NCBI GenBank assembly: GCA_023266055.1
Contig: JAHFRW010000002.1
Span: 63,069 to 127,068, forward strand
DNA length: 64,000 bases
From: Gammaproteobacteria bacterium
GTDB taxonomy: Bacteria > Pseudomonadota > Gammaproteobacteria > Ga0077554 > Ga007554
Reading direction: 5' to 3'
The translations under genes were made by a program, and so were the position numbers. Numbering within the stretch: the stretch's first letter is position 1; every line of letters starts with the position of its first letter. Of the stretch, positions 9,022 to 50,711 are shown piece after piece. A model generated the notes under the pieces. That model saw only the letters and a program-made list of their open reading frames with translations, made no database searches and was not told the origin of the DNA.

Positions 9022-10632
9022 TTACAACGACTGATGTTTACTCCATTTTTTGATCTGCTCACATAGCGTTTGAGCCGATACCAAAGGTTGGGTTACTGTA
9101 ATCGTCAATACGCGTGCCATTTCTGCAGCAGTGAGTGGCTCGTGGTGGGCAAGCTGATGTTCCAGTACCTCAAGATCGGCATCCGATGCATCATGGCCGT
9201 CACGCATGCGTTGGATAATACGGGTGCGTAATACGGCTTCAGGTGCCTGAAAATCAAGAATGATAAAGGGTATCTTCATGTTATCAGCAAGGCGATGAAA
9301 TAATTCGCGTTGTTCCTGCGTCAGGAAAGCGGCATCAATGATGACCGGATAGCCCGATTGGATCACGGTATGTGCAAGATCAGCCAGATAAGCATAGGTG
9401 CGTTGGCTGGCAGCGGTGGTGTACAGACCCCTGTTAATGCTGGGTGATGAACGTGCTTGCAGTGGAAGATGAGCTATCCGTTTGCGTTCGATGTCCGAGC
9501 GCAGGCGAATGGCGCCCAGTGATTCAAGTAATAACTGAGTACATGTGGTTTTTCCTGACCCCGACAGGCCATGGGTGATGATCAGGGGCGTGCCATGGCG
9601 CTGTGTATAATGTTCGGCCAGGTTGACGTAATTTTTGTATTGCTGGTAAGCGATGGGTTGCTGAGCCGGGTTAACCTGTACCTGTACCTGTTGCGTTATG
9701 CGTATACAGGCTACCTTGGCACGCACCAGGGCGCGATATACTTGATAGTAACGTAATACCTGTAGTCCGGCGTAATCTCCGGTGAGTTGTAAATAAGCAT
9801 TCAGAAAGCGCCATGCCAGTGCCTGGTGAGTGTGGCTATCGAGATCCATGGTCAGAAAAGTGATTTCACTGATGACGTCTATCCAGCGCAGATTTTCGTT
9901 GAATTCCAGGCAATCAAACAGGATGATGCTGCCTTGCAGCAACGCCATGTTTCCCAAATGCATATCGCCATGACACTCCCGAATGAAGTGATTATTTTTT
10001 CGCGATTGGAAGATGGATTCATGCCGATGGAATTCGGCCTCACTCCAGATACGTAGTTGCTCGAGCTGGTTAATATCGAGCGTGGTCGTCAGGTGTGGCT
10101 GGATTTGTGAAAAATTTTCCATGACGGGTTGATGGATTTTTGCAGGTAGTCCATACAGGGAGTCTGGTTCTGCAATGGCGATGCTATCGTGAAACACCGA
10201 CACAATTTCAGCAAGCTGATCAATATGTGTTGATAGTAGCCGCCCCTGGGCGACCATGTGATCCAGCTGCGCTTGTTGTGAAAACTGCTGCATTTTCACG
10301 GCGTATTCGATCGGTGCGCCTGAGCCGCCGAGCATGGGGCTATTTTCATTGCCAGTGATGGTAATCACCCCAAGGTATATATGTGGCGCGAGGCGTCGAT
10401 TCAGACGTAATTCCTCGGTGCAATAGTAATGGCGTTTTTCAAGTGTTGAAAAATCCAGAAAGCCCAGGTTCAGGGGTTTTTTTATTTTGTAGGCATATTG
10501 CCCGGTTAGTAATACCCATGAAATATGGGTTTCGATAATTTCAAAACCCTGTACAGGGTGGTTATATAACGCAGGATTTTGCAATGCGTACAGAAGCGTA
10601 GTCGTGGTGGCGGAATCCGTGGTATTCATCAA
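9022..10632 (-). CDS. Fusion of aminoglycoside-phosphotransferase-like domain and P-loop kinase (COG2187/COG0645 type)
   Basis: CHGDMHLGNMALL phosphotransferase motif and THGLSGSGKTTCTQLLLE Walker A; ATG at 10629 overlaps the upstream small ORF's stop. Confidence 0.85.
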   Translation of the reverse strand: MMNTTDSATTTTLLYALQNPALYNHPVQGFEIIETHISWVLLTGQYAYKIKKPLNLGFLDFSTLEKRHYYCTEELRLNRRLAPHIYLGVITITGNENSPMLGGSGAPIEYAVKMQQFSQQAQLDHMVAQGRLLSTHIDQLAEIVSVFHDSIAIAEPDSLYGLPAKIHQPVMENFSQIQPHLTTTLDINQLEQLRIWSEAEFHRHESIFQSRKNNHFIRECHGDMHLGNMALLQGSIILFDCLEFNENLRWIDVISEITFLTMDLDSHTHQALAWRFLNAYLQLTGDYAGLQVLRYYQVYRALVRAKVACIRITQQVQVQVNPAQQPIAYQQYKNYVNLAEHYTQRHGTPLIITHGLSGSGKTTCTQLLLESLGAIRLRSDIERKRIAHLPLQARSSPSINRGLYTTAASQRTYAYLADLAHTVIQSGYPVIIDAAFLTQEQRELFHRLADNMKIPFIILDFQAPEAVLRTRIIQRMRDGHDASDADLEVLEHQLAHHEPLTAAEMARVLTITVTQPLVSAQTLCEQIKKWSKHQSL

Positions 10633-10787
10633 CGGTGGCGCGGAGAATCGGCTCTTAATCTGTTTTTGGCGCGATGACGCAAGGTTTTATAGATGACAGC
10701 GGATGTGACTAATAATCCCATGATGGTTATCCCTGCGAAGGCCAATGGAAACTGCTCAATGATTTTTTGAATTTTCTCAAGATTCAT
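10629..10787 (-). CDS. 52-aa single-pass membrane protein, not in the supplied ORF track
   Basis: Manual translation MNLEKIQKIIEQFPLAFAGITIMGLLVTSAVIYKTLRHRAKNRLRADSPRHR*; 4-nt ATGA overlap with the downstream CDS. Confidence 0.65.
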   Translation of the reverse strand: MNLEKIQKIIEQFPLAFAGITIMGLLVTSAVIYKTLRHRAKNRLRADSPRHR

Positions 10788-10802
10788 GCTGTGCTCGGAC
10801 TG

Positions 10803-13031
10803 TCAGGAACTATGTAGTTTTTTCCGGCAGGTTTCCTGTAACTTATGCCATAGATCACCGTAAAAATTTTTAACTATACGCAGTAGTGTCAACATGGATT
10901 TAAAAAAGCTGTCGGGATGATAGCCGGGATTGTTCCAGGCATCGACACGTCCAAACAAATGCCAGTTCAACCATCGTTCCTGAGGTAAAGTCAGGGACAC
11001 AAAGCTTACTGTCACAATATTCCCTGTGCAGTTTACCACATGAACTTCGATGGGTATTTGTTCGGGGGTAGCGATGCCAGTGAATGCCAATGCCTCGGCA
11101 TCGTGGATGTTCAATGTGAGGATATCGCCTTCCTGAACATGGGCGAACTGAAATTTTTCCGGTATGGAAATGCGCATGCCATGTAGTGAGGCATCTTCCA
11201 TTCGAACGGGTACGAGTTGGTTGTGAATGCACAGCGTGGCGGGTAAATGCAGCTCGGTAATACGGGGTGATGCGCGGCGCTGGGGGCGTTCCCAGGCAGT
11301 GGCGACGGCTACCGAGAGAATCAGGATGTTGTATAGGTTCCAGAACATATTCAATAAAATGGCACTGATCCATTCGTCTGATCCAAACACCAGTCGCCAT
11401 ATGGCAATGCCATTGGCAATCCAGGCGATACTCAGGAAGATTAAAAAGGGACGGGCGATCGCTAGATCATAAAATCCTTGATCCAGGAGTTGCCCTTTGG
11501 GGGTGACTTTAAATGTGCCCCGTTTGGGACCGAATAATGTCACGAGTGTTGGCTTTAAAATGTACCACGATGTAACGGTTTCATACACATCACCCCAGAA
11601 GGTATGACGATATTGTCCGTACAGTCGTGACGTAATGATTTGTGTCATTAAGAGATAAGGTAGCGCATAGGCGAGAATCATGGCGGCGGGCGCATGAATT
11701 GCCTGCAAGTCAAACACCAGAAATGTAATAGGGGTGATAAAAAATACCAGTCGCGGCAGGGCGCTAAGATAAAACAAATATCCGGCAATATAGCTCAGAT
11801 TTTGTGCGGCACTCATACCTTTTTGCCAGAGCCCTTCGCAGCGTAGCATTTGAATGGTACCTTGCGCCCAGCGTATGCGTTGCTGGAGTAGATCCGCCAG
11901 TGTTTCAGTGCTGTAACCTGCCGAGAGGCGACGATTCAGATAAGCACTGCGCCAGCCACGGCGATGCAGTTTTTGGCTGGTGTGTGCATCTTCAGTAATG
12001 GTTTCTATGGCAACACCGCCAATTTCTTCCAGTGCCTGACGGCGCAAAACTGCAGAAGAGCCACAGAAGAATGCCGCATTCCATAAGTCCTTGCCGTCCT
12101 GAATGGCGCCATGAAAGATATCGCCTTCCTGTGGCACCTTGCGGTGTATGTTGAGGTTACGATCAAAGGGGTCGGGAAAAAAGAAATGATGCGGTGTTTG
12201 CACAAGAAACAAGCGTTCATCACGTAGAAATCCTCCCACGGTTTCTAGCAGAAAATTGCGTGTGGGGCGAAAGTCCGCATCAAAAAGTGCAATGAGTTCA
12301 CTGCTCGTAACGTTCAATGCAGCATTAATATTACCAGCCTTGGCATGCTGGTTATGATCGCGGCTGAAGTAGCCGACACCCAGTTCCATACACAGATCAC
12401 GAAAATCTTCACGGCGACTGTCATCCAGCAAATATATATTTAATTTGTGGGCAGGCCATAACATATTTTGTGCTGCGATTAATGTGGGGCGTACCACGTC
12501 CAGGGGTTCATTATAGCTGGGAATAAAAACGTCAATGGTAGGCCATGCAGTCTGGTCATCCGGCAAGGGTGTGGCTGGGCGTTGCAATGGCCACGTCATT
12601 AAGCCGGAATTAAGAAGGCCTACGGCAATGCCTTGTGCTTCGGCGATAAGCAGTCCCACCACAACGATTAAATCCCAGTCTGGGGATAAGTCAACGGTGT
12701 TGGTGACGCGCCAATAAAAATATCGCAGAGTCAGTACTGTGCCTATTAATATCAGTGCAATAGTGGCAAGCCGCCCCGTTGTGGAATACAGTAATATGGA
12801 AAATACGATCAGTCCACTGGCAAACATCCATTGCGCGGAGGTAGATAAAGGCGCAGATACAGCGAAATACAGTGTAGTGACAATGAATAAATAAACGGGC
12901 AGGTTCAGCCAGAGTGAGGCAGGTGCCTTGAGCCACGCGACAAGATGGTACTTCAAAAAGGAATGTGTGTAGGCAAGCAGAGTAGTGCGCATCAGACGTT
13001 TTTTTAAATGCTCCCAAGGAAGGCAGTGCAA
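10803..13031 (-). CDS. bcsA: Cellulose synthase catalytic subunit-like glycosyltransferase (BcsA type, PilZ domain)
   Basis: DDS, FDADFRP, FFCGSSAVLRR, TEDAHTSQKLHRRGW, QQRIRW; PilZ region RPQRRASPR...DASLHGMRI; multiple TMs. Confidence 0.92.
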   Translation of the reverse strand: MHCLPWEHLKKRLMRTTLLAYTHSFLKYHLVAWLKAPASLWLNLPVYLFIVTTLYFAVSAPLSTSAQWMFASGLIVFSILLYSTTGRLATIALILIGTVLTLRYFYWRVTNTVDLSPDWDLIVVVGLLIAEAQGIAVGLLNSGLMTWPLQRPATPLPDDQTAWPTIDVFIPSYNEPLDVVRPTLIAAQNMLWPAHKLNIYLLDDSRREDFRDLCMELGVGYFSRDHNQHAKAGNINAALNVTSSELIALFDADFRPTRNFLLETVGGFLRDERLFLVQTPHHFFFPDPFDRNLNIHRKVPQEGDIFHGAIQDGKDLWNAAFFCGSSAVLRRQALEEIGGVAIETITEDAHTSQKLHRRGWRSAYLNRRLSAGYSTETLADLLQQRIRWAQGTIQMLRCEGLWQKGMSAAQNLSYIAGYLFYLSALPRLVFFITPITFLVFDLQAIHAPAAMILAYALPYLLMTQIITSRLYGQYRHTFWGDVYETVTSWYILKPTLVTLFGPKRGTFKVTPKGQLLDQGFYDLAIARPFLIFLSIAWIANGIAIWRLVFGSDEWISAILLNMFWNLYNILILSVAVATAWERPQRRASPRITELHLPATLCIHNQLVPVRMEDASLHGMRISIPEKFQFAHVQEGDILTLNIHDAEALAFTGIATPEQIPIEVHVVNCTGNIVTVSFVSLTLPQERWLNWHLFGRVDAWNNPGYHPDSFFKSMLTLLRIVKNFYGDLWHKLQETCRKKLHSS

Positions 13032-13040
13032 AGGATGTTC

Positions 13041-14234
13041 TTAAGGTTCATTGAATAAATCTCTTCCAATTTCAGGGCGTGGTGGAGTGAATGCAGGATG
13101 GTTGGCATTATTGAACCAGTGGCGCAGATAGATTTGTAGCGTATGCTCGGTAAAGGTGCTGACACGATTGAGCGTAGCGGATAAACCGAGGCTGCTATTT
13201 TTACTGAATGAGTATTCTCCGCTCATGCGACCGCCGCCCCCCCATTGCCGGCTGGCAGATGATCCTGATGTCTGATTACCCAATGATGAATCCAGAGGGA
13301 ACCAGAGTGCATTATCTTCACGTACTCTCTGCCAGCCAATATCCGCTTGTATGAAATAACTGAAACTATTATGGCGACCTTCCATGCTGGTGCTGACACT
13401 CATGCGTCTAAAGGTTTGCGGACTGAAATAGCCACCCTGGCCCAGAGTAAATAGCGATTGATTATGATCATAGCCAAATGCAGTGAGATTGGTTGCCACG
13501 ACAACGGTCGCAGCAGGGTGCGTAATGGGTAGATGATAGCTGCCAAAACTCCCTTCCCAATTGCGGTTGCTGGCTACATGGTGTCCGTTGAATCGGCTCA
13601 CACCGCCCCCTGCATACAGTCCCCAGCCTGTAAAACCGGCAGACCAGGCCAGGCGTAATCGTGATTGACGTATTCCACCCCATAGCAATCCGGTCGCCGG
13701 ATCGTGTGTTCCTGCATAAGACAGAACGCTATCTGTCACTGCACGGTGCTCCATGCCGATCCTGAATTGCTGAATACCACTATTGTGTCGCCAGAATATT
13801 GCACCTGTTATATCGTCTATCGCAAAACCCAGGGGGGTTGTACCCAATTGCAGATGCAGATTACGGGTGGGCATCACGGCCAGTTGTAGCGCGGTACCTT
13901 GGGCTTCCTGTTCGGGAATGGCTCGTGTACCTGACGTGGGTGTTGTGCCAAATCGCGCATCAAGCGCAGGGCGGCCCGCGTTGAGTGTAGTAGGCGTTAT
14001 TCCCAGCCGTATCTGGCTCTCCTGCCATGCCGGCAGGGTGGTGCTTATGTCAAAGATATTTTCGTCAAGGCGGCTTAATCCGGTATCACCGGTACGGGCA
14101 CGCAGCTGATACGCTGCAATGGTGAGCACCTTGATTTCTTTGGTGTTGGGTGGGATCTGGGCGATAGCGTAGCCTGACACTGGACTGATCAATGCAATGA
14201 GGAGGATGCGAATAAAAGGCGCCGTCGGTGGCAT
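13041..14234 (-). CDS. BcsC C-terminal-domain-like outer-membrane barrel protein without TPR region
   Basis: Signal peptide, then BcsC_C-like sequence (RARTGDTGLSRLDENIFDI, TPTTLNAGRP, RAVTDSVLSYAGTHDPATGLLWGGIRQSRLRL); 397 aa only; 9 bp upstream of bcsA. Confidence 0.8.
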   Translation of the reverse strand: MPPTAPFIRILLIALISPVSGYAIAQIPPNTKEIKVLTIAAYQLRARTGDTGLSRLDENIFDISTTLPAWQESQIRLGITPTTLNAGRPALDARFGTTPTSGTRAIPEQEAQGTALQLAVMPTRNLHLQLGTTPLGFAIDDITGAIFWRHNSGIQQFRIGMEHRAVTDSVLSYAGTHDPATGLLWGGIRQSRLRLAWSAGFTGWGLYAGGGVSRFNGHHVASNRNWEGSFGSYHLPITHPAATVVVATNLTAFGYDHNQSLFTLGQGGYFSPQTFRRMSVSTSMEGRHNSFSYFIQADIGWQRVREDNALWFPLDSSLGNQTSGSSASRQWGGGGRMSGEYSFSKNSSLGLSATLNRVSTFTEHTLQIYLRHWFNNANHPAFTPPRPEIGRDLFNEP

Positions 14235-14517: not shown

Positions 14518-15561
14518 ATGCCAAAAGTTTCAATCATGCCCATCTTGGGGGCGTTATGTTTCTTTCAGATCACGTTTGCTGCTGAAGCACCGCTCGCGGT
14601 AACCGAGGTGCAATATCGTACTGTTGCGGGCCAACAATTATTTGATGCGCTGATTGAGCCCGTCAAGCAATCTGTAGTGGCATCCCAGGTGAACAGTCGT
14701 ATTCGTGAAATCACGGTGGACGTGGATGACCGTGTATCCAGGGACCAGGTTCTGGTGCGCTTGCTGGATACCGAGTTGCAAGCACGTCTGGAGCACGGGC
14801 AGGCTGGAATGAGCGAGGCGCACGCACGCCACAAAGAAGCACAGCAAGACTTTGAGCGCATTAAAAGCATCTATGAAAAACGCTTGATTGCCAAAGTCGA
14901 AATGGATCGTGCAACCGCGATGCTGAACTCGGCGCAGGCACGGCTGGAGGCGGCTCGGGCACGTGTTACAGAGGAGCATGAACTCGTTGGGTATACCGTA
15001 ATAAAAGCACCTTACGCGGGTGTTATCGTGCAGCGACATGCCGAAGCAGGTGAAATGGTGCGACCAGGACAACCGTTGCTGACGTTGCAGGCGCTGGACA
15101 GGTTAAGGGTCTTGATTGATGTGCCGCAAACATTTATCAGGACCGTGCGCACCCAGGGTCGTGCGCATATCTTGATTCCAGGGCAAGGCCGCTCTGTGGA
15201 AGTAACCCCCCTGACGATTTTTCCCCATGCCGATACATTGACACATACAGTGAAAGTACGTGCTGATCTGCCTGTCGGACACGCTGGTATTTATTCTGGC
15301 ATGCTGGTGAAAGCGGCATTTTCCCAGGACAAGGCACAGCGCATGCAAGTGCCGCACAGCACCGTGGTACATCGCAGTGAAATGACGGGTGTGTATGTGG
15401 TTGGCAAGGATGGGCGTGTGAGTTTGCGCCAGATTCGTATCGGACAAATATATGATGATGGCATGGTCGAAATATTAGCGGGGCTTGATGTGGGCGAGCG
15501 TGTTGCCCTCGACCCGGTACGTGCCACCGCGTCGCTGAAACAGCAACGCATGAATCAATAA
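14518..15561 (+). CDS. RND efflux periplasmic adaptor (membrane fusion protein)
   Basis: Signal peptide, HlyD/barrel-sandwich and coiled coil (YTVIKAPYAGVIVQRHAEAGEMV). Confidence 0.9.
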   Translation: MPKVSIMPILGALCFFQITFAAEAPLAVTEVQYRTVAGQQLFDALIEPVKQSVVASQVNSRIREITVDVDDRVSRDQVLVRLLDTELQARLEHGQAGMSEAHARHKEAQQDFERIKSIYEKRLIAKVEMDRATAMLNSAQARLEAARARVTEEHELVGYTVIKAPYAGVIVQRHAEAGEMVRPGQPLLTLQALDRLRVLIDVPQTFIRTVRTQGRAHILIPGQGRSVEVTPLTIFPHADTLTHTVKVRADLPVGHAGIYSGMLVKAAFSQDKAQRMQVPHSTVVHRSEMTGVYVVGKDGRVSLRQIRIGQIYDDGMVEILAGLDVGERVALDPVRATASLKQQRMNQ

Positions 15562-41987: not shown

Positions 41988-44900
41988 CTAATGGCGTGTA
42001 CGCCTGAAACACAGGATAGTCGCCAGCAGCTGCAGCAGCAGAAATGCTGGATCAATCGTGCCACCACCTCCGCCCGATGCGGGTGCTGCAAGGGTGCTGG
42101 AACTGGTTATCCGGATGAGTTGTCCGGGATCCTTGATCACATGGTTAGCTAGACCATCGGTGTCGTTGGGGCCTCCATCCTGCAAGGTAAGCTGGATGCA
42201 GTAATGGCCTGCCGTGAGTCCGGGGGTGAAGTTCTGACTGCCTGGGGGTGGACATTCGCCAGGAGCGCCAGGAGCAGATGTGAGCGCATTGTTGGTGTCG
42301 ATTACAAAATCACGCCAGCCGCTGACAGGGTCATATTTGCGATAACGAGCGTTGCCGGGAATGGGCCCGAGTTGTGGAATTACTACGCGCACCGATTGTC
42401 CGGCGTATGGTAATTGTGCGACTTCGAAATCGAAATAGCCACCACTGTTGGGCACGGTATCCTGTGCTGAAGCGCTGCCTGGTTTGCCTTCACCGCCACC
42501 GTAAGCGGCAATTTCGGCCACGCTGACCTTGGCGCCCTTGGCGCCTGCGGCAAAGGCGACTTCACCGAGGCGCAGTAATAATCCTGGTTCAGTTCGCATG
42601 ACATAACCGCCTGTTGCCGGGAGTAGTACCAGTTCGTTACTGCTTAAGGTATCGATGTCCAGGTAGTCGGGGATGCCATCTCCATCACTGTCCTGGTACG
42701 ATTCAATATCATCGGGGATGCCGTCACCGTCGCTATCGACGGCATTCGACAGTACGGGTGCAGCGTAGGCTACCTGCAGCAGTAGATCGACACTGGTTGC
42801 CAGAGCGGGTGTGCCACTGTCAGTAACGGTGAGTCGCACGTTGTAGAAACCGGCCGTCAATGCAGCAGGACTGAAAACGAACGTGGCAGGGTTGCCGTCG
42901 TTGATATCAATCAGACCGGGATTGCTGGCGCTCCAGTTATAACCATGAGTGTCACCCGGATTAGGATCGGTGACACTCGCAGTGACTGTGATCTGGCCGT
43001 TGCCGGTGACGGTCAGACGTGTTCCTGTGCCATTCTGCGTGGATGCCAGTGTTACCCGTGGCGCACGGTTGCTTTCCATGATGGTAATGTGGTGTGTGGT
43101 ACGCATTCCAGCAACGGCGTTTATAGGTGTACCCAGGGTGAATATTACGGTTTCAGCGGGCTCGGCCACGGCGTCACTGACTACATTGAAGGTAATGCCG
43201 CCGGCTGTGCCGGAATTGATTACAATATTACCGCTGACAGCATTATGATCACCGGGGTTGGTGGCCGTGCCGCTCACGGTATAAGGCAGGGTGACTGGAT
43301 AGCTGCTGGCCGCCTCGCTTAATATCGCTGTGACCGTGACCGTGGTCCCTTCACCCACGATCTGGTCGAGTGCGAAATTGACCATGGGAATACGGGGTTG
43401 GTCGTCGTCGGTGATGACGACGGTGGCCGCGCCGGGTTTGTCAACAATATAATCTGAAGCGCCCGCCAGCGTCACAATGATGGTTTCGTCGGATTCGATG
43501 GTTGCATCCGGAATAGTGCCAATAGCGATGGTTGCGCTGCTGCTGCCTGCGGGAATGTTGACTGTACCCGTTAAGGTATAGTAATCCACACCCCGTGTGG
43601 CGGTGCCGCCCGTGCCATAGAAGACGGTAAGCGCTGCGGCTGTCGATCCACTGCGGGTGACGGTCAGGAGTCCTGGGGTGGTGCTACCTTCCGTTACACG
43701 GGCACGAGTAGCGACGACATTAACCTTGGTCAGACTGTCGTCATCAAGATTGGTGACGGATACATCTGCCACTGCCATACCGCTGTATTGCGTATCAGCA
43801 CTGATCGCTGCCGAAGTGATGATGGTGTAAGCCACATTGCCGTCGATCAATGCGTCATCCACGCCGACGACGGTAACAGTCTGTGCCACACTCCAATTGG
43901 AAGGTGTAAACGTTAAGCTGCTGGCCGTAACCTGCCCTTCGGCGGTATTGCTGCTGGATATATTGATGGTCACGTTGGCGCTGGGTTGGCTGCCCAGCAT
44001 CATGGAGAAATTATCGGCCTTGCCGGCTTCGCTGGTCACCAGTCCGATAGTCGGGAACACAGAGACAGAAGCAATATCATCATCGGTGATGGTCACAATG
44101 GTATTGCCGGGTGCCCCCGCCGTGTAGCCGCCACCGTTGGTCACAGTTATGTTTATCGTTCTGCCGGGTTTGGCAATGCTGTCATTAATGGGAATGATGG
44201 ACTCGGTGACGCTGGCGCTGCCGGTGGGGATTACTGCACTGCCGCTTAGTGCCATGTAATCGACACCAGCGACGGCGGTGCCGCTCACGTTGTAATTCAC
44301 GGTGAGATCAGCGGTGATTTCACCACTGCGGGTAAAGGTAACACTGCCAAGGCCAATCTCACTGGTACTGACGCCTGTAATGGTTACCACTTGTGGTACA
44401 TCATTATCGAGGTTGGTAACCAGAACATCAGCGGGATCCTGCCCATTGTAAGCGTTGTCGGCACTCACCACAGGTGCCAGTATTATGGCGTATGCAATGA
44501 TGCCATCGACCACGGCATCATTGACGCCGGTTACCGTGACCGTTTGTGTCTGGCGCCAATTGACCTGATCAAATACCAGACTTGTCGGGGATACCGTGCC
44601 TTCATTGGTATTACTGCTAGAGAGGTTGATGGTCACGGTTGCTGTCGGCGGGCTAGTTAATGCCACGGTGAATGTGGCCGTGCCGCCTGACTCACTGGTG
44701 ATAAGACCTGCGGTAGGAGTAACGGTGAAGCCTGGGGTCTGGGTCTGGCTCAGGAAGAAGAAAACGCCACCCCGGTTCAACAAGTCATAGTATCGCGAGG
44801 CTACATAGATATCAGGATAAGTATCGCCGTTGACATCACCGACGGTGCCCACATCGTAACCCATGTTGCCACTCGTCTGACTGCCCTGATAATTCCAGAT

Positions 44901-47900
44901 GGGAGTGGTTACGATACCGCTGGATGATCCGGGGTAAATGAATGCCGCGCCTCTGGAGTTATAGGCGGGGGCGCCAATGATGACATCACTATAGCCATCC
45001 TTGTTAAGATCTCCTGCGGTGTTGACTTGCCAGCCAAAATTGGCGCCCACAACATTGCTCTCGATTTTGCCGTTGTTCTCACTATTGGCGCGTACAATGC
45101 CATCCCCGGCGCCCGCCACAAGCAGGCCAGTGGCCGAACCATGGAACATGAAAATCGCCCCTTCACCTGATTGGCCATTGGTGAAGTAAGGTGCGCCAAT
45201 AATAATGTCATCATAGGCATCGTTATTGACACGTCCCGCCTGGGCTACAGCGTAGCCGAACTGGGAACTGGCGACATCACTTTCTGCCTTCCAATTGGCA
45301 TCGATGGGGTGGGCGATGCCATCGGCACCGGCATCGTTGAAGCCGGCTGCTGATCCGTAGAAGACGTAAACCTTGCCTTCAATACTTTGGCCATTGGTGT
45401 GTCGTGGCACCCCAATGATCAGGTCATCATAAGCATCGCCATTGACGTTGGCGACGGCCAGGCCATGGTCCAGGCCAGTGTAGCCGCTGGAGACATCACT
45501 TTCGAATAACCAGGCTGCATTCGCAAGTGTCGCAGTGGGAGCACCGGGCAGGCCGGCGGCGGAATTGAAGAATACATAGACACGCCCTTCAAAGCTCTGG
45601 TCGTTGGTTGCGTAAGGTGCCGCGATAGCGATATCACGATAACCATTGCCATCGAAATCACCGCTTCGCGCGATGGCATTTCCGAACAAACTGCCGGATA
45701 CACCGGACACTTTCCAGTTTGCATCGGAAGGAAGACCGATACCATCACTATTGGCATCGGGCAAACCGCTGGCACTGCCGTAATAAACGTAAACTGTAGG
45801 CGCCGCCCCAGAGGGCGCGCCAACGGCAATGTCTTCACAGCCGTCTCCATTGACATCGCCGAGACCGACAACCTGTGTACCGAAATTAGTGGCGGTTAAA
45901 CTGTCACGACCGATCCAGTTTGCCGTAGTCGAATAACCAGTCACCGTGCCGTAATAGACACGAATCTCACCATAGTTGAGATTGCCTGCCCCAATAATCA
46001 AATCGGGTCGACCGTCACAATTAACGTCGGCCTTGGTAACGACGTTGCCGAAATTTGAAGAATCGATATTGTTCTGCAGAATGGTGAGTTTTTGGTTGTT
46101 ATCCATGTTGGTTACTGACACATCCGCTGCATTGACATTATTGTAGTTAAGGTCGGTGCTGATGGCCGGTGCGGTGATTATGGTATAGGATTGCGAACCG
46201 TCAATTTTGGTATCATCGATGCCGGTAATAGTGATGAGTGCGCTGCGAGTACCGCCAGGTGAAAAATTAACGGAGCTCGGCGACGGCATCCCTTCTCCAG
46301 AATTACTGCTGGAGAGATTGACCGTGACGTTGGCGCTGGGGGCAGCGCCCAGATTGAGAGTGAAGGTGGCCTGTCCACCATTTTCGGTGGTTACCAACCC
46401 GGTGCCGGGCATGACAGTGATGGTGTAACCGTCGTTGTCCAGATTGCTCATGGCGATGTCATTGGGGTTAACGCCGTTGAAATTAGTATCAGCACTGGAG
46501 AAGGTTGAAGTCACAATATTGTAATTGACCGTGCCGTCCACGACAGAGTCATTGATGCCAAAAACAGTGCCGTTTTGAGGAATATTCCAGTTGCTGGCAT
46601 CGAAAGTCATGGATGAGGGGCTGACAAAGCCTTCATTGATATTGTCACTGGATAACATGAACGTGACGCTGGCGCTGGGTTTGGCAGTCAACGCAATGGT
46701 GATCGGTGCAAAGCCACCGGATTCACTGGTGACATAACCGTAGGTTGCAGTGACAATGATATTTGCTACATCATTGTCGTTATTGGTAACGGCCACATCG
46801 GCAGGGTTCATGCCACTGTACTTGGGATCGACGCTGACTGCGGATGCCGTGATTATTGTGTATGAAATATTGCCGTCGATGATGACATCGTCAACGCCTG
46901 TGACCGTCACGGTCTGGGTGGTATTCCAGTTGCTGCTATTGAATGTGAGAGCGCTGGGGCTGATAGTGCCTTCGTTGGTATTGCTGCTGGAGATACCGAT
47001 GGCAACATTGGCAATAGGCTGAGTGTTCAATCTCACGGTAAAGGTGGCGACACCACCCGACTCGCTGGTGACCAACCCTGACGTGGGGCTAACGGTGATA
47101 CCAGCAGTATCGTTGTCGGTGTTGATCAGAGAGACGTCGCTGGGATTGACAAAATTAAATGCTGGGTCCGTACTTTTGGTGGCAGTGGTGATGATGCTGT
47201 AGGCAACATCATCATCATCGATTAGATCATCCACGCCGGTGACCGTTACGATTTGTGGTGTGTTCCAGTTGGCGCTGGTGAAAGTGAGAGATGCAGGTGA
47301 AACCGTGCCCTCTGCGGGATTGGAGCTGTAAAGGTTGAAGCTGACATTGGCATTCGGTGCGCTGGTGAGTACTACGCTAAACGTTGCTGTCCCGCCTGTT
47401 TCGGTCGTGGTTAGCCCACTGGTCGGACTAACGGAGATATTGCCACTGCCGCTGGTGGCATATGTCACACCAACGTCTTCCAGTGTCGGTGTAGCACTGC
47501 CGTCTGAAACCAGTGTCACCTTGTACTGTAACCATTGATCGTTCAGACTGTCGCGTAGAGCATCGGCCAGTGTGGTACAGCTGACAGCAGTCGTTCCGGA
47601 ACAGCCGCCGGCATAGGTGTTGGTGGAGCTCCAATAGCTGTTTGCTGTACTGTCGGTTCCCACCCAGGTACCCCATGTGCCAGGGGCTCCAGCATTATTC
47701 GTCGCGGTGCGAATTTGCACGCGTACTTCTGTTCCGATGGGTAAGGTCTGTGTCCATGCCAGTCCATCAAGGAGATTGTTGAGGCTGGTGCTGTTGTAGG
47801 CGGATGAAATCAATGAGGCGGAGTAGGCATAGCGCGAATAATTAACCGTGACATCCTGCAGTACGGGTGTCACGGTATTATCTGCGGTTGTCAGATTTGC

Positions 47901-50711
47901 CCGGTATTGCACATAACGATTAATCCCCAGCGCTGAAATATTACCGCCATTGGCAATACCCGTTTGCCATGCTGTCCAGCTTCCATCCGGAGAGGGAGTA
48001 TTCCCGGCGCGTACATCGAGAGTCATCGCGGTACTGACGGGTGTGGTCGCTGTGTAGCCGAGAGTTGTGTATCCGACATGTGGCCCTGCATCTATCACTG
48101 AAGATGTGAACAGGCCTGATGCGGTATAGGTACCTAAAGCAACTACCTTGAACGCGGCGGCGGAGAGGTAGGCATAACGGCCTCGTGGGTAAACACCGCT
48201 TACATTTGTTTCATGGGATGCGACCAGTACTGGCAATGTAGGGTTTGAGATGTCAAACACCTTGAGTGAGTTGTCGGCGATATACGCATATCCATCTTCC
48301 ACAAAAATATCACCACCAGCATTAACCTCATTGGTGATGCTCACTAGCACGGGAGTAGCTGGATTGGTTATGTCGATGATTTTAAGGCCTGTTCCTGTTA
48401 TGTAGGCGTAATTTCCGCGCACAAAAATGCCGTATGTCGTACCGGGATACGTCGTTATCAGGGTGGGAGCCGCTGGATTGCTGATGTTAATTATTGCCAG
48501 ACCGGATGTGCCATCGGCAACATAAGCTGTGTTACCCGATACGAAGACGCGACTCGCCGTGCCGGGTGTTGCCAAGCTTCCTGCCAATGTGGGTGCATTG
48601 GGGTTCGACACGTTAATAATTTGCAGGCCACTATTTATCCAGTCTGCCACATACGCGTAATTTCCTGATACATGGACGCCCTGTGCCCAGCTTGGTGTAT
48701 TATAGGTGCCAAGCTTGACGGGGGCGGCTGGATTAGAGATATTGATAATAATCAATCCGGCATCGGCAGCGGCTACATAAGCATAATTTCCGGAAACATA
48801 AGTATCAAGAGCGATGGCATTAGTCGGTGTAGTCGCCGTTGATGAAGGTGCCGCGGGATTGGAAATGTTGACAATCTGATGAACAGAAGATGAATTTCCT
48901 GAGTTATCCGCCAGATAGGCGTAATTCCCGTCGACATGGAGATTATAGGTTGGATAGGTTGCCACAAGGCTGCCAACAGTTGATGGGCTGAAGTTAAGCT
49001 TAAGCGTCACGCTAGCTGCATTGTCGCTGCCGGTGATGGCCACATTGGAGCCCAATGCATAGTTGTTATAGTTAATCGTCAATTGCATCAAGGACGCAGT
49101 CACAGCATTATTGGTGGTTGAAAAATTGGCGCGATACTGCACATAACGTCGAGTTCCCAGCGCTGAAATATCGCCACCGGTTGCGATATTATTCTGCCAG
49201 GCCGTCCAGCTTCCATCAGGTGTGGCGGTATTGCCAGCGCGTATGTCAATGGTCAGCGTGGTGTTGGTGGGTATTGTTGTTATATAACCCAGTGTAGTGA
49301 AACCCTGATTGGAGATGGTATCTATCGCTGCTGATGTCAGTGTACCAGACGTCGTGTAGGTGCTTGTACCACTATTGATATAACCGTAGGTATATCCCCA
49401 GAAATCGGATTGCCCCATCATAAAATCGAGATCGCCATCACCATCCAGATCGGCCAGGGCAGGTGCTGAATAGGAGCCGAGACCGCTTTTGTTCCAGGCT
49501 GTATTTGCTGTCCAGATCGGTGCTGTTGTGCTGCCGGTGTTTTGGTAGCCATAAACAATCCCACCGGAATTGTTGCCTATCAACAAATCAAAATCACCAT
49601 CGCCATCAATATCGGCCAGTGCAGGTACGGCAAAAGCGCCAGTATCCGGGGTATTCCAGGCCGCATTCGCGACCCAAACAGGTGCTGCTGTCGTGCCATC
49701 ATTTCGGTATCCATAGCTGATGCCTCCGGAATCACCGATCATAAGATCGAGATCGCCATCACCGTCCAGATCCGCCAGTGTTGGTGAAGCATAATATCCC
49801 AGGGCTGTATCGGGTATGCTCCAGGCAGGTTTCGCACTCCACACAGGTGAGTATTTGGTTCCGGTGTTTTCGTAACCGTACACACCTCCATTGTATTCCC
49901 CAATCATGAGATCGAGATCACCATCGCCATCCAGATCAGCCAGTGTGGGCGATGCGTACGATCCAACAGAGGGTACATTCCATAAACTTTGTGTGGTCCA
50001 TACTGGTGAGGTTGAGCTGCCAATATTTTTGTAGGCGTAGGTGATCCCGTTATTTGCACCTACTATCATGTCCAAATCACCGTCGTTATCCAGATCTGCT
50101 AACGCTGGTTTCACCAGATTGTTGACTCCCGCACCCAGGCTGTTGAGAGGGCTGCTGGGGTTCCATGCAGCATTCGCAGCCCAGGATGGTGTGTGGGAGG
50201 CGAAACGTAATCTGACAGTACCACTGCTGACAGAGATGCCATTGAGTGTAGCGCCAGAGGAGAAATCTCTATCGGAGTCATGAATGCGTGAGATGTTTCT
50301 GGACAGTGCGAAATCACTGTCGGACGTATGGGTGCGCGAATCAGGTACAGTGCCCAGTTGCAAATCGGCACCGCCGTTAACCACGGCAATATTGGCATCT
50401 TTGCTTGAATAAGCCGTCCAGCCTGTCTGATGGGTTGGGTCGGTGGCGACACACTCGGTTCCCGTCCACTGGCCACCGACTGAGCTACACGCAGTGGTAT
50501 CGGCAGGGGCACCGCTGTTCCAGTTGGTTTGGGTGAACGTTGCGGCCAGCGCGGCGAACATTGGTAATACGGCGAGTGCCCACAACGTGCGTCGAGAAGC
50601 CAGACGTATCCTGTGGCGCAGGTGTCCAGCCATACCAACGAGGAACGCTGGTTTTTTCAGAAACGAAAAGATATCTCGCTTTGCCACACCCAGGTACCTC
50701 TGTTGTTGCAA
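41988..50711 (-). CDS. Giant multi-repeat exported surface protein: FG-GAP/VCBS, LVIVD, ~113-aa Ser/Thr-rich modules, Calx-beta, TSP3-like, GlyGly-CTERM-like tail
   Basis: 2907-codon ORF; likely real start ATG at 50633 (MAGHLRHRIRLASRRTLWALAVLPMFAALAATFT); C-terminus SGGGGGTIDPAFLLLQLLATILCFRRTRH. Confidence 0.9.
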   Translation of the reverse strand: MQQQRYLGVAKRDIFSFLKKPAFLVGMAGHLRHRIRLASRRTLWALAVLPMFAALAATFTQTNWNSGAPADTTACSSVGGQWTGTECVATDPTHQTGWTAYSSKDANIAVVNGGADLQLGTVPDSRTHTSDSDFALSRNISRIHDSDRDFSSGATLNGISVSSGTVRLRFASHTPSWAANAAWNPSSPLNSLGAGVNNLVKPALADLDNDGDLDMIVGANNGITYAYKNIGSSTSPVWTTQSLWNVPSVGSYASPTLADLDGDGDLDLMIGEYNGGVYGYENTGTKYSPVWSAKPAWSIPDTALGYYASPTLADLDGDGDLDLMIGDSGGISYGYRNDGTTAAPVWVANAAWNTPDTGAFAVPALADIDGDGDFDLLIGNNSGGIVYGYQNTGSTTAPIWTANTAWNKSGLGSYSAPALADLDGDGDLDFMMGQSDFWGYTYGYINSGTSTYTTSGTLTSAAIDTISNQGFTTLGYITTIPTNTTLTIDIRAGNTATPDGSWTAWQNNIATGGDISALGTRRYVQYRANFSTTNNAVTASLMQLTINYNNYALGSNVAITGSDNAASVTLKLNFSPSTVGSLVATYPTYNLHVDGNYAYLADNSGNSSSVHQIVNISNPAAPSSTATTPTNAIALDTYVSGNYAYVAAADAGLIIINISNPAAPVKLGTYNTPSWAQGVHVSGNYAYVADWINSGLQIINVSNPNAPTLAGSLATPGTASRVFVSGNTAYVADGTSGLAIINISNPAAPTLITTYPGTTYGIFVRGNYAYITGTGLKIIDITNPATPVLVSITNEVNAGGDIFVEDGYAYIADNSLKVFDISNPTLPVLVASHETNVSGVYPRGRYAYLSAAAFKVVALGTYTASGLFTSSVIDAGPHVGYTTLGYTATTPVSTAMTLDVRAGNTPSPDGSWTAWQTGIANGGNISALGINRYVQYRANLTTADNTVTPVLQDVTVNYSRYAYSASLISSAYNSTSLNNLLDGLAWTQTLPIGTEVRVQIRTATNNAGAPGTWGTWVGTDSTANSYWSSTNTYAGGCSGTTAVSCTTLADALRDSLNDQWLQYKVTLVSDGSATPTLEDVGVTYATSGSGNISVSPTSGLTTTETGGTATFSVVLTSAPNANVSFNLYSSNPAEGTVSPASLTFTSANWNTPQIVTVTGVDDLIDDDDVAYSIITTATKSTDPAFNFVNPSDVSLINTDNDTAGITVSPTSGLVTSESGGVATFTVRLNTQPIANVAIGISSSNTNEGTISPSALTFNSSNWNTTQTVTVTGVDDVIIDGNISYTIITASAVSVDPKYSGMNPADVAVTNNDNDVANIIVTATYGYVTSESGGFAPITIALTAKPSASVTFMLSSDNINEGFVSPSSMTFDASNWNIPQNGTVFGINDSVVDGTVNYNIVTSTFSSADTNFNGVNPNDIAMSNLDNDGYTITVMPGTGLVTTENGGQATFTLNLGAAPSANVTVNLSSSNSGEGMPSPSSVNFSPGGTRSALITITGIDDTKIDGSQSYTIITAPAISTDLNYNNVNAADVSVTNMDNNQKLTILQNNIDSSNFGNVVTKADVNCDGRPDLIIGAGNLNYGEIRVYYGTVTGYSTTANWIGRDSLTATNFGTQVVGLGDVNGDGCEDIAVGAPSGAAPTVYVYYGSASGLPDANSDGIGLPSDANWKVSGVSGSLFGNAIARSGDFDGNGYRDIAIAAPYATNDQSFEGRVYVFFNSAAGLPGAPTATLANAAWLFESDVSSGYTGLDHGLAVANVNGDAYDDLIIGVPRHTNGQSIEGKVYVFYGSAAGFNDAGADGIAHPIDANWKAESDVASSQFGYAVAQAGRVNNDAYDDIIIGAPYFTNGQSGEGAIFMFHGSATGLLVAGAGDGIVRANSENNGKIESNVVGANFGWQVNTAGDLNKDGYSDVIIGAPAYNSRGAAFIYPGSSSGIVTTPIWNYQGSQTSGNMGYDVGTVGDVNGDTYPDIYVASRYYDLLNRGGVFFFLSQTQTPGFTVTPTAGLITSESGGTATFTVALTSPPTATVTINLSSSNTNEGTVSPTSLVFDQVNWRQTQTVTVTGVNDAVVDGIIAYAIILAPVVSADNAYNGQDPADVLVTNLDNDVPQVVTITGVSTSEIGLGSVTFTRSGEITADLTVNYNVSGTAVAGVDYMALSGSAVIPTGSASVTESIIPINDSIAKPGRTINITVTNGGGYTAGAPGNTIVTITDDDIASVSVFPTIGLVTSEAGKADNFSMMLGSQPSANVTINISSSNTAEGQVTASSLTFTPSNWSVAQTVTVVGVDDALIDGNVAYTIITSAAISADTQYSGMAVADVSVTNLDDDSLTKVNVVATRARVTEGSTTPGLLTVTRSGSTAAALTVFYGTGGTATRGVDYYTLTGTVNIPAGSSSATIAIGTIPDATIESDETIIVTLAGASDYIVDKPGAATVVITDDDQPRIPMVNFALDQIVGEGTTVTVTAILSEAASSYPVTLPYTVSGTATNPGDHNAVSGNIVINSGTAGGITFNVVSDAVAEPAETVIFTLGTPINAVAGMRTTHHITIMESNRAPRVTLASTQNGTGTRLTVTGNGQITVTASVTDPNPGDTHGYNWSASNPGLIDINDGNPATFVFSPAALTAGFYNVRLTVTDSGTPALATSVDLLLQVAYAAPVLSNAVDSDGDGIPDDIESYQDSDGDGIPDYLDIDTLSSNELVLLPATGGYVMRTEPGLLLRLGEVAFAAGAKGAKVSVAEIAAYGGGEGKPGSASAQDTVPNSGGYFDFEVAQLPYAGQSVRVVIPQLGPIPGNARYRKYDPVSGWRDFVIDTNNALTSAPGAPGECPPPGSQNFTPGLTAGHYCIQLTLQDGGPNDTDGLANHVIKDPGQLIRITSSSTLAAPASGGGGGTIDPAFLLLQLLATILCFRRTRH
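46080..47440 (-). repeat. Four tandem ~113-aa protein modules inside the giant gene (two more near 44390-44730 and 43730-44080)
   Basis: Repeating xxVxPTxGLVTSESGGxATFTVxLxxxPxANVxxxxSSSNxxEGxxSPxxLxFxxxNWxxxQTVTVTGVDD. Confidence 0.85.

Follow-up and report, generated by a model that had tools for sequence, protein, structure and literature searches.

In vitro, BcsA together with the C-terminal tail of BcsB suffices for cellulose synthesis (PMC11470070, citing Omadjela 2013), and only the transmembrane anchor and the amphipathic helix of BcsB seem to be needed for catalysis (PMC6740014). The E. coli complex has the tail of a single BcsB copy lodged in a groove of BcsA transmembrane helices 1-3 (PMC11470070), and its secretion path, which spans the envelope, consists of the complete BcsB crown together with the TPRs of BcsC (PMC11379886). 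The DNA considered here, a window of 64,000 nucleotides (the whole stretch that was analysed) from a gammaproteobacterial draft genome (G000; 2.7 Mb, 94.6% complete), carries a locus resembling the Rhodobacter BcsA-BcsB core in its in vitro minimal form, with a PilZ-containing BcsA and a putative BcsB amphipathic helix and tail anchor. The Rhodobacter minimal form is a laboratory truncation, whereas the window has an apparently natural, stand-alone gene without the periplasmic BcsB domains. The GTDB order of the organism, Ga0077554, has been given the name Siderophiliales; among its members is 'Candidatus Siderophilus nitratireducens', an iron oxidiser from groundwater that reduces nitrate (PMC10993476).

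Other described systems share parts of this arrangement. Gammaproteobacterial bcsABZC operons (the E. coli type II core, and that of the sister genus represented by G003) have homologues of the same BcsA, BcsC barrel and BcsZ, but in the window genome full BcsB and the BcsC TPRs are missing, bcsZ is unlinked, and BcsA falls outside the G003 clade. The closest BcsA clade is that of the BcsA-BcsB fusion synthases (G016, G081, G268, G278, G370), whose C-terminus carries a tail anchor of the same type; they keep the whole of BcsB, whereas the window keeps a separate tail only. The cyanobacterial type IV system (XcsA-HlyD-TolC, PMC12430437) likewise has a PilZ-BcsA without full bcsB, but employs an HlyD adaptor and a TolC-like pore in the places taken in the window by a tail of BcsB type and the barrel of BcsC. 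In alginate export, too, the barrel protein (AlgE) contains no TPR domain, although it has a dedicated TPR partner, AlgK; no such partner is linked to the window locus. No description of a natural tail-only BcsB was found in the open-access literature, and the new element appears to be a BcsB pared down to its membrane tail rather than simply absent. The reading that we favour, with reasonable though not strong confidence, is a naturally minimised Bcs system, activated by a tail anchor and provided with a TPR-less pore.

The locus, its synthase and its barrel

Four close open reading frames, all on the minus strand, make up the locus as the first-pass annotation had described it (Table 1). The tail gene occupies the usual place of bcsB, directly after bcsA, and begins 15 bases past the bcsA stop. 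Its own stop codon shares bases with the kinase start codon (overlap motifs TGATG / ATGA), which suggests that the two are translationally coupled, and the kinase fusion is probably cotranscribed with the tail gene; the APH match of the fusion (Pfam, E 0.035) is below the cut-off. An assembly artefact was set aside, as the same locus is present in two MAGs with separate assemblies and, in the window genome, is well within its contig.

Table 1. Features of the bcs-like locus (window positions)
Feature	Position	Strand	Description
TPR-less BcsC, 397 aa	13041..14234	-	signal-peptide-like N-terminus and complete BCSC_C outer-membrane barrel
bcsA, processive GT2 cellulose synthase with PilZ, 742 aa	10803..13031	-	TIGR03030 and PF07238
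Putative BcsB-type tail anchor, 52 aa	10629..10787	-	amphipathic helix, transmembrane helix, basic C-terminus
Phosphotransferase-like and AAA_33 P-loop kinase fusion	9022..10632	-	AAA_33 E 6.2e-37

The synthase was correctly recognised at first pass as a BcsA with all catalytic motifs and a PilZ region. It scores 721 bits against the NCBIfam model TIGR03030, above the curated cut-off of 699.1 for the GT2/transmembrane core, its C-terminus matches PilZ (PF07238, E 2.9e-10), and E. coli BcsA structures match it at E about 6e-162. The DxD, TED, QxxRW and FxVTxKG motifs can be read in the sequence, as can the PilZ motifs RxxxR (RASPR) and DxSxxG (DASLHG). Translation probably begins at the ATG at 12992, the place where the open reading frame of the congener (G001) starts; the two BcsA proteins are 81% identical. 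In a BcsA tree, the window protein groups within a clade that is rich in BcsA-BcsB fusions, and not with the G003 BcsA (support 98/98). Family membership suggests that the product is cellulose. With 24 GGDEF matches in the genome, c-di-GMP would be available in principle.

The 397-residue protein covers positions 2-336 of the 336 in the PF05420 profile (E 3.1e-71) and matches no other Pfam family, in agreement with the prediction of a BcsC barrel made from the letters alone. About 54 residues, likely including a signal peptide, precede the match, and they contain no TPRs; an N-terminal periplasmic TPR array is absent from the protein, which scores 113 against a cut-off of 858 with the NF008520 model. 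The reading frame is closed by a stop 23 codons before the ATG (up to which 420 codons are open), and beyond the barrel gene a divergent efflux gene starts at 14518; together these make a missed TPR domain impossible. Sequence comparison with solved structures retrieved as relatives only BcsC entries of E. coli type, among them the barrel of PDB 6tzk (E 7.6e-18). An AlphaFold2 model of the barrel from a two-sequence alignment reached a pLDDT of 26. Compared with the congener, the barrel gene has a dN/dS of about 0.09. No close relatives of the barrel occur in the plasmid and phage collections, where the best identities are about 23-36%, and these collections gave no pointer to a tail-only system.

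The 52-residue reading frame and the BcsB C-terminus

The first-pass annotation reported no BcsB. This holds for the family as such, with no PF03170 match genome-wide, but the resemblance of the 52-residue frame to the BcsB tail anchor had gone unrecognised. Among 18,950 NCBIfam models, four of the five that match the window tail at E<=10 are BcsB models (best E 7e-4), and the four BcsB models matched by the congener's copy, all at their extreme C-terminus, are its only matches at that threshold; both copies match the BcsB models only at roughly the last 40 positions (about 43). The window score of 17.7 is far below the curated BcsB cut-off of 945, and the frame is too short for the carbohydrate-binding and flavodoxin-like domains of periplasmic BcsB, which are absent; it is not classed as a member of the BcsB family (PF03170 or the NCBIfam BcsB models). 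In a profile alignment with hhalign, residues 5-47 matched the C-terminus of BcsB collinearly, at columns 715-757 of the 762 in a profile of 12 BcsB sequences (P 1.1e-4). The 12 BcsB C-termini, from related families, share the layout of the tail frame: an amphipathic helix, a turn that often contains proline, a transmembrane helix and a basic end. The N-terminal helix is amphipathic in both tail copies (p about 0.02 each).

A BcsB-tail HMM, built without the window and congener sequences, was run on 13,252 short six-frame reading frames, and among distinct hits the congener copy ranked first and the window copy third. The window score is weak (10 bits) and was equalled by 9 of 1000 segment-wise shuffles, so that this HMM by itself would not be decisive, and the proposed identity draws on several weak tests that agree. 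In sum, a BcsB-type amphipathic helix and transmembrane tail anchor appears to follow bcsA, with scores that are weak but specific and collinear, and the 52-residue protein is quite likely a remnant of the BcsB C-terminus. The copies (52 and 53 residues) are 65% identical; between the two genes pS is 0.90 (saturated), pN is 0.20, and 32 of 57 differences fall at third positions, which indicates from sequence comparison that the frame is a real, constrained gene under strong purifying selection.

A further alternative is a small membrane protein without kinship to BcsB, of the BcsF kind for example, with a BcsA that works without any part of BcsB, as in cyanobacterial type IV systems with HlyD-like adaptors. 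Short transmembrane helices do match one another easily, as the roughly 1% of shuffles reaching the HMM score illustrates; a membrane-fusion protein gene (14518-15561) is the divergent neighbour, and BcsA-like genes adjoin HlyD genes in two genomes of the same family. Nevertheless, neither tail copy matches BcsF (PF11120) or any other Pfam family at E<=1, so the BcsF identity was dropped, and both match BcsB C-termini specifically. Next after the neighbouring fusion protein gene comes one for an RND pump, the two forming an ordinary efflux unit, for which reason this adaptor was also set aside as a BcsB substitute; moreover, the window BcsA lies in the BcsB-using clade and not in the HlyD-linked one. 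An unrelated protein is thus judged unlikely, and the remnant of a BcsB tail is retained as the preferred identity.

In the two genomes just mentioned, G002 (L023:475-3776) and G004 (L024:6120-9358), a BcsA-like synthase is directly coupled to a gene for an HlyD-type adaptor, and neither genome has a BcsB or BcsC family match. Their layout, which thus occurs within the same genus and family, resembles cyanobacterial type IV and differs from that of the window locus.

Partners in the genome and distribution among relatives

Family search found no PF03170 protein in the window draft genome or in the congener, an absence that is not absolute, both genomes being drafts, but on which two separately assembled, nearly complete genomes agree. 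One PF05420 protein is present in the window genome, so a second bcsC is not found either. Of the two outcomes that would have refuted the early proposal of a reduced gene set, a complete bcsB/bcsC elsewhere in the genome and a barrel protein not matched by PF05420, neither was observed in this draft. That proposal had also listed bcsZ as not visible and had allowed for partners elsewhere. No bcsZ lies in the locus, but a GH8/BcsZ-type gene lies off it, on contig C81 (34185-35132, minus strand) beside cusBA (L096:8955-10385), and the congener has its own orphan bcsZ beside cusBA (C35; L097:9081-10343). The partner found elsewhere is thus bcsZ; bcsB and a clear BcsC-type TPR protein were not found.

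The missing bridge, though not the tail anchor, is disputed by an alternative with which the tail-anchor reading is compatible, namely that the same reduced synthase relies on a TPR or other periplasmic scaffold encoded elsewhere in place of the BcsB crown and BcsC TPRs, much as AlgE is served by the separate AlgK, the pathway being dispersed and not minimal. We regard this as possible, if less probable than the favoured reading. The bcsZ gene is already dispersed, and there are TPR proteins with weak likeness to the BcsC TPRs, one of PrsT type on contig C76 and a 917-residue protein with TPRs and a barrel on C67 (apparent counterpart on C31 of the congener). Set against these, the best match in the window genome to a BcsC TPR-region query reaches only E 1e-6, and is the PrsT-type protein itself (TIGR02917, 555 bits; PEP-CTERM/exosortase system), and no TPR gene is linked to the bcs locus. 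The counterparts of about 910 residues (C67, L139:463-3216; C31, L137:469-3180) have N-terminal TPRs and a C-terminal barrel-like stretch that is not PF05420, and could be polysaccharide porins.

The proposed minimised system has so far a narrow distribution, being known from two draft MAGs of one genus. In the congener (contig LNFF01000008.1) the order barrel, bcsA, 53-residue frame and kinase is the same, the barrel gene starting 21 bases from the contig end. Among the roughly 760 genomes of the survey, no further case of this arrangement was seen; the class and phylum samples are thin per family, and this rarity speaks for the survey only. Strong BCSC_C matches occur in 15 of 369 class-sample genomes, all of which except the window genome also have PF03170, and a frame shorter than 700 residues that matches the whole barrel occurs only in the window genome; the other short frame (G073, 192 residues) has a partial match in a fragmented genome. 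The phylum sample, with matches in 49 of 399 genomes, gave the same sole full-length case and a 482-residue frame with a partial match (G608). A BcsA scan of the genome contig collection returned the congener only, and nothing was returned from viral contigs. The class does contain BcsA-like genes (31-37% identity) that are not accompanied by BcsB.

Proposed mechanism and origin

The favoured reading starts from the gene content and its conservation, the homology of barrel and BcsA, and the failure to detect BcsB. Controlled through c-di-GMP and PilZ, BcsA would polymerise the glucan and pass it across the inner membrane. The 52-residue protein, as all that is left of BcsB, would sit in the groove against BcsA transmembrane helices 1-3, stabilising the synthase, and we infer that it activates BcsA. 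The BcsB carbohydrate-binding and flavodoxin-like domains and the BcsC TPR scaffold would have been lost, the remaining barrel serving as exit pore; with BcsC reduced to its barrel, the canonical complex probably does not connect the synthase to the pore. The chain would cross the periplasm either without coupling, stray chains being trimmed by the orphan BcsZ, or by way of a scaffold encoded elsewhere. A streamlined, c-di-GMP-regulated beta-glucan exporter devoid of BcsB periplasmic domains and TPRs, one of the options raised at first pass, accords with these findings and would be common to both species.

It is more tentative that the system makes and exports cellulose with no dedicated periplasmic bridge, which may well be so but falls somewhat short of an even chance. 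Similar caution applies to the general notion that polymerisation can be separated from envelope bridging, with a stand-alone tail-anchor microprotein activating BcsA and a TPR-less barrel exporting the chain without crown or scaffold; on the comparisons made here it is a plausible notion, held with less than even confidence. If true, a natural system with the catalytic tail and barrel only would show which Bcs parts a cell needs, would give structural biologists and engineers a compact set of three genes to work with, and would make the passage of glucan across the periplasm directly testable.

As to origin, the sister genus has a normal bcsA-bcsB-bcsZ-bcsC operon just downstream of cusB-cusA (G003), and the orphan bcsZ of the window genome and congener follows the cus genes after two small genes. 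It is by far closest to the G003 bcsZ (about 394-399 bits, against 280 for the next). The simplest history would be that an ancestral bcsABC was lost, leaving bcsZ behind, and that a second, fusion-type system was reduced to BcsA, tail and barrel. Derivation of the tail by loss of the middle of a BcsA-BcsB fusion is plausible, because the window BcsA belongs to the fusion-rich clade. Since the older operon was apparently lost except for bcsZ, this lineage has shed cellulose genes before, and the present locus might likewise be the decaying remnant of an operon with no cellulose output. This we consider highly improbable: dN/dS between window and congener is low in all three long genes, tail pN is well below pS, the catalytic motifs are intact, and gene order is kept in two species. 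A functional, minimised system thus remains the preferred reading.

Some further observations concern neighbouring genes and sequences. The GH8 motif YDAIR of some relatives, which we take to hold the catalytic base, is YNAIR in the BcsZ-type proteins of G000, G001, G003 and G187, and their enzyme activity is putative. The congener's bcs locus is adjoined (L021:4272-6411) by a gene for a PEP-CTERM protein and one for EpsL, a predicted exosortase-linked polysaccharide outer-membrane protein that scores above the TIGR03014 cut-off. Elsewhere in the window, a 2907-residue frame (41988-50711, minus strand) with LVIVD, FG-GAP and Calx-beta repeats probably encodes a giant surface or secreted protein.
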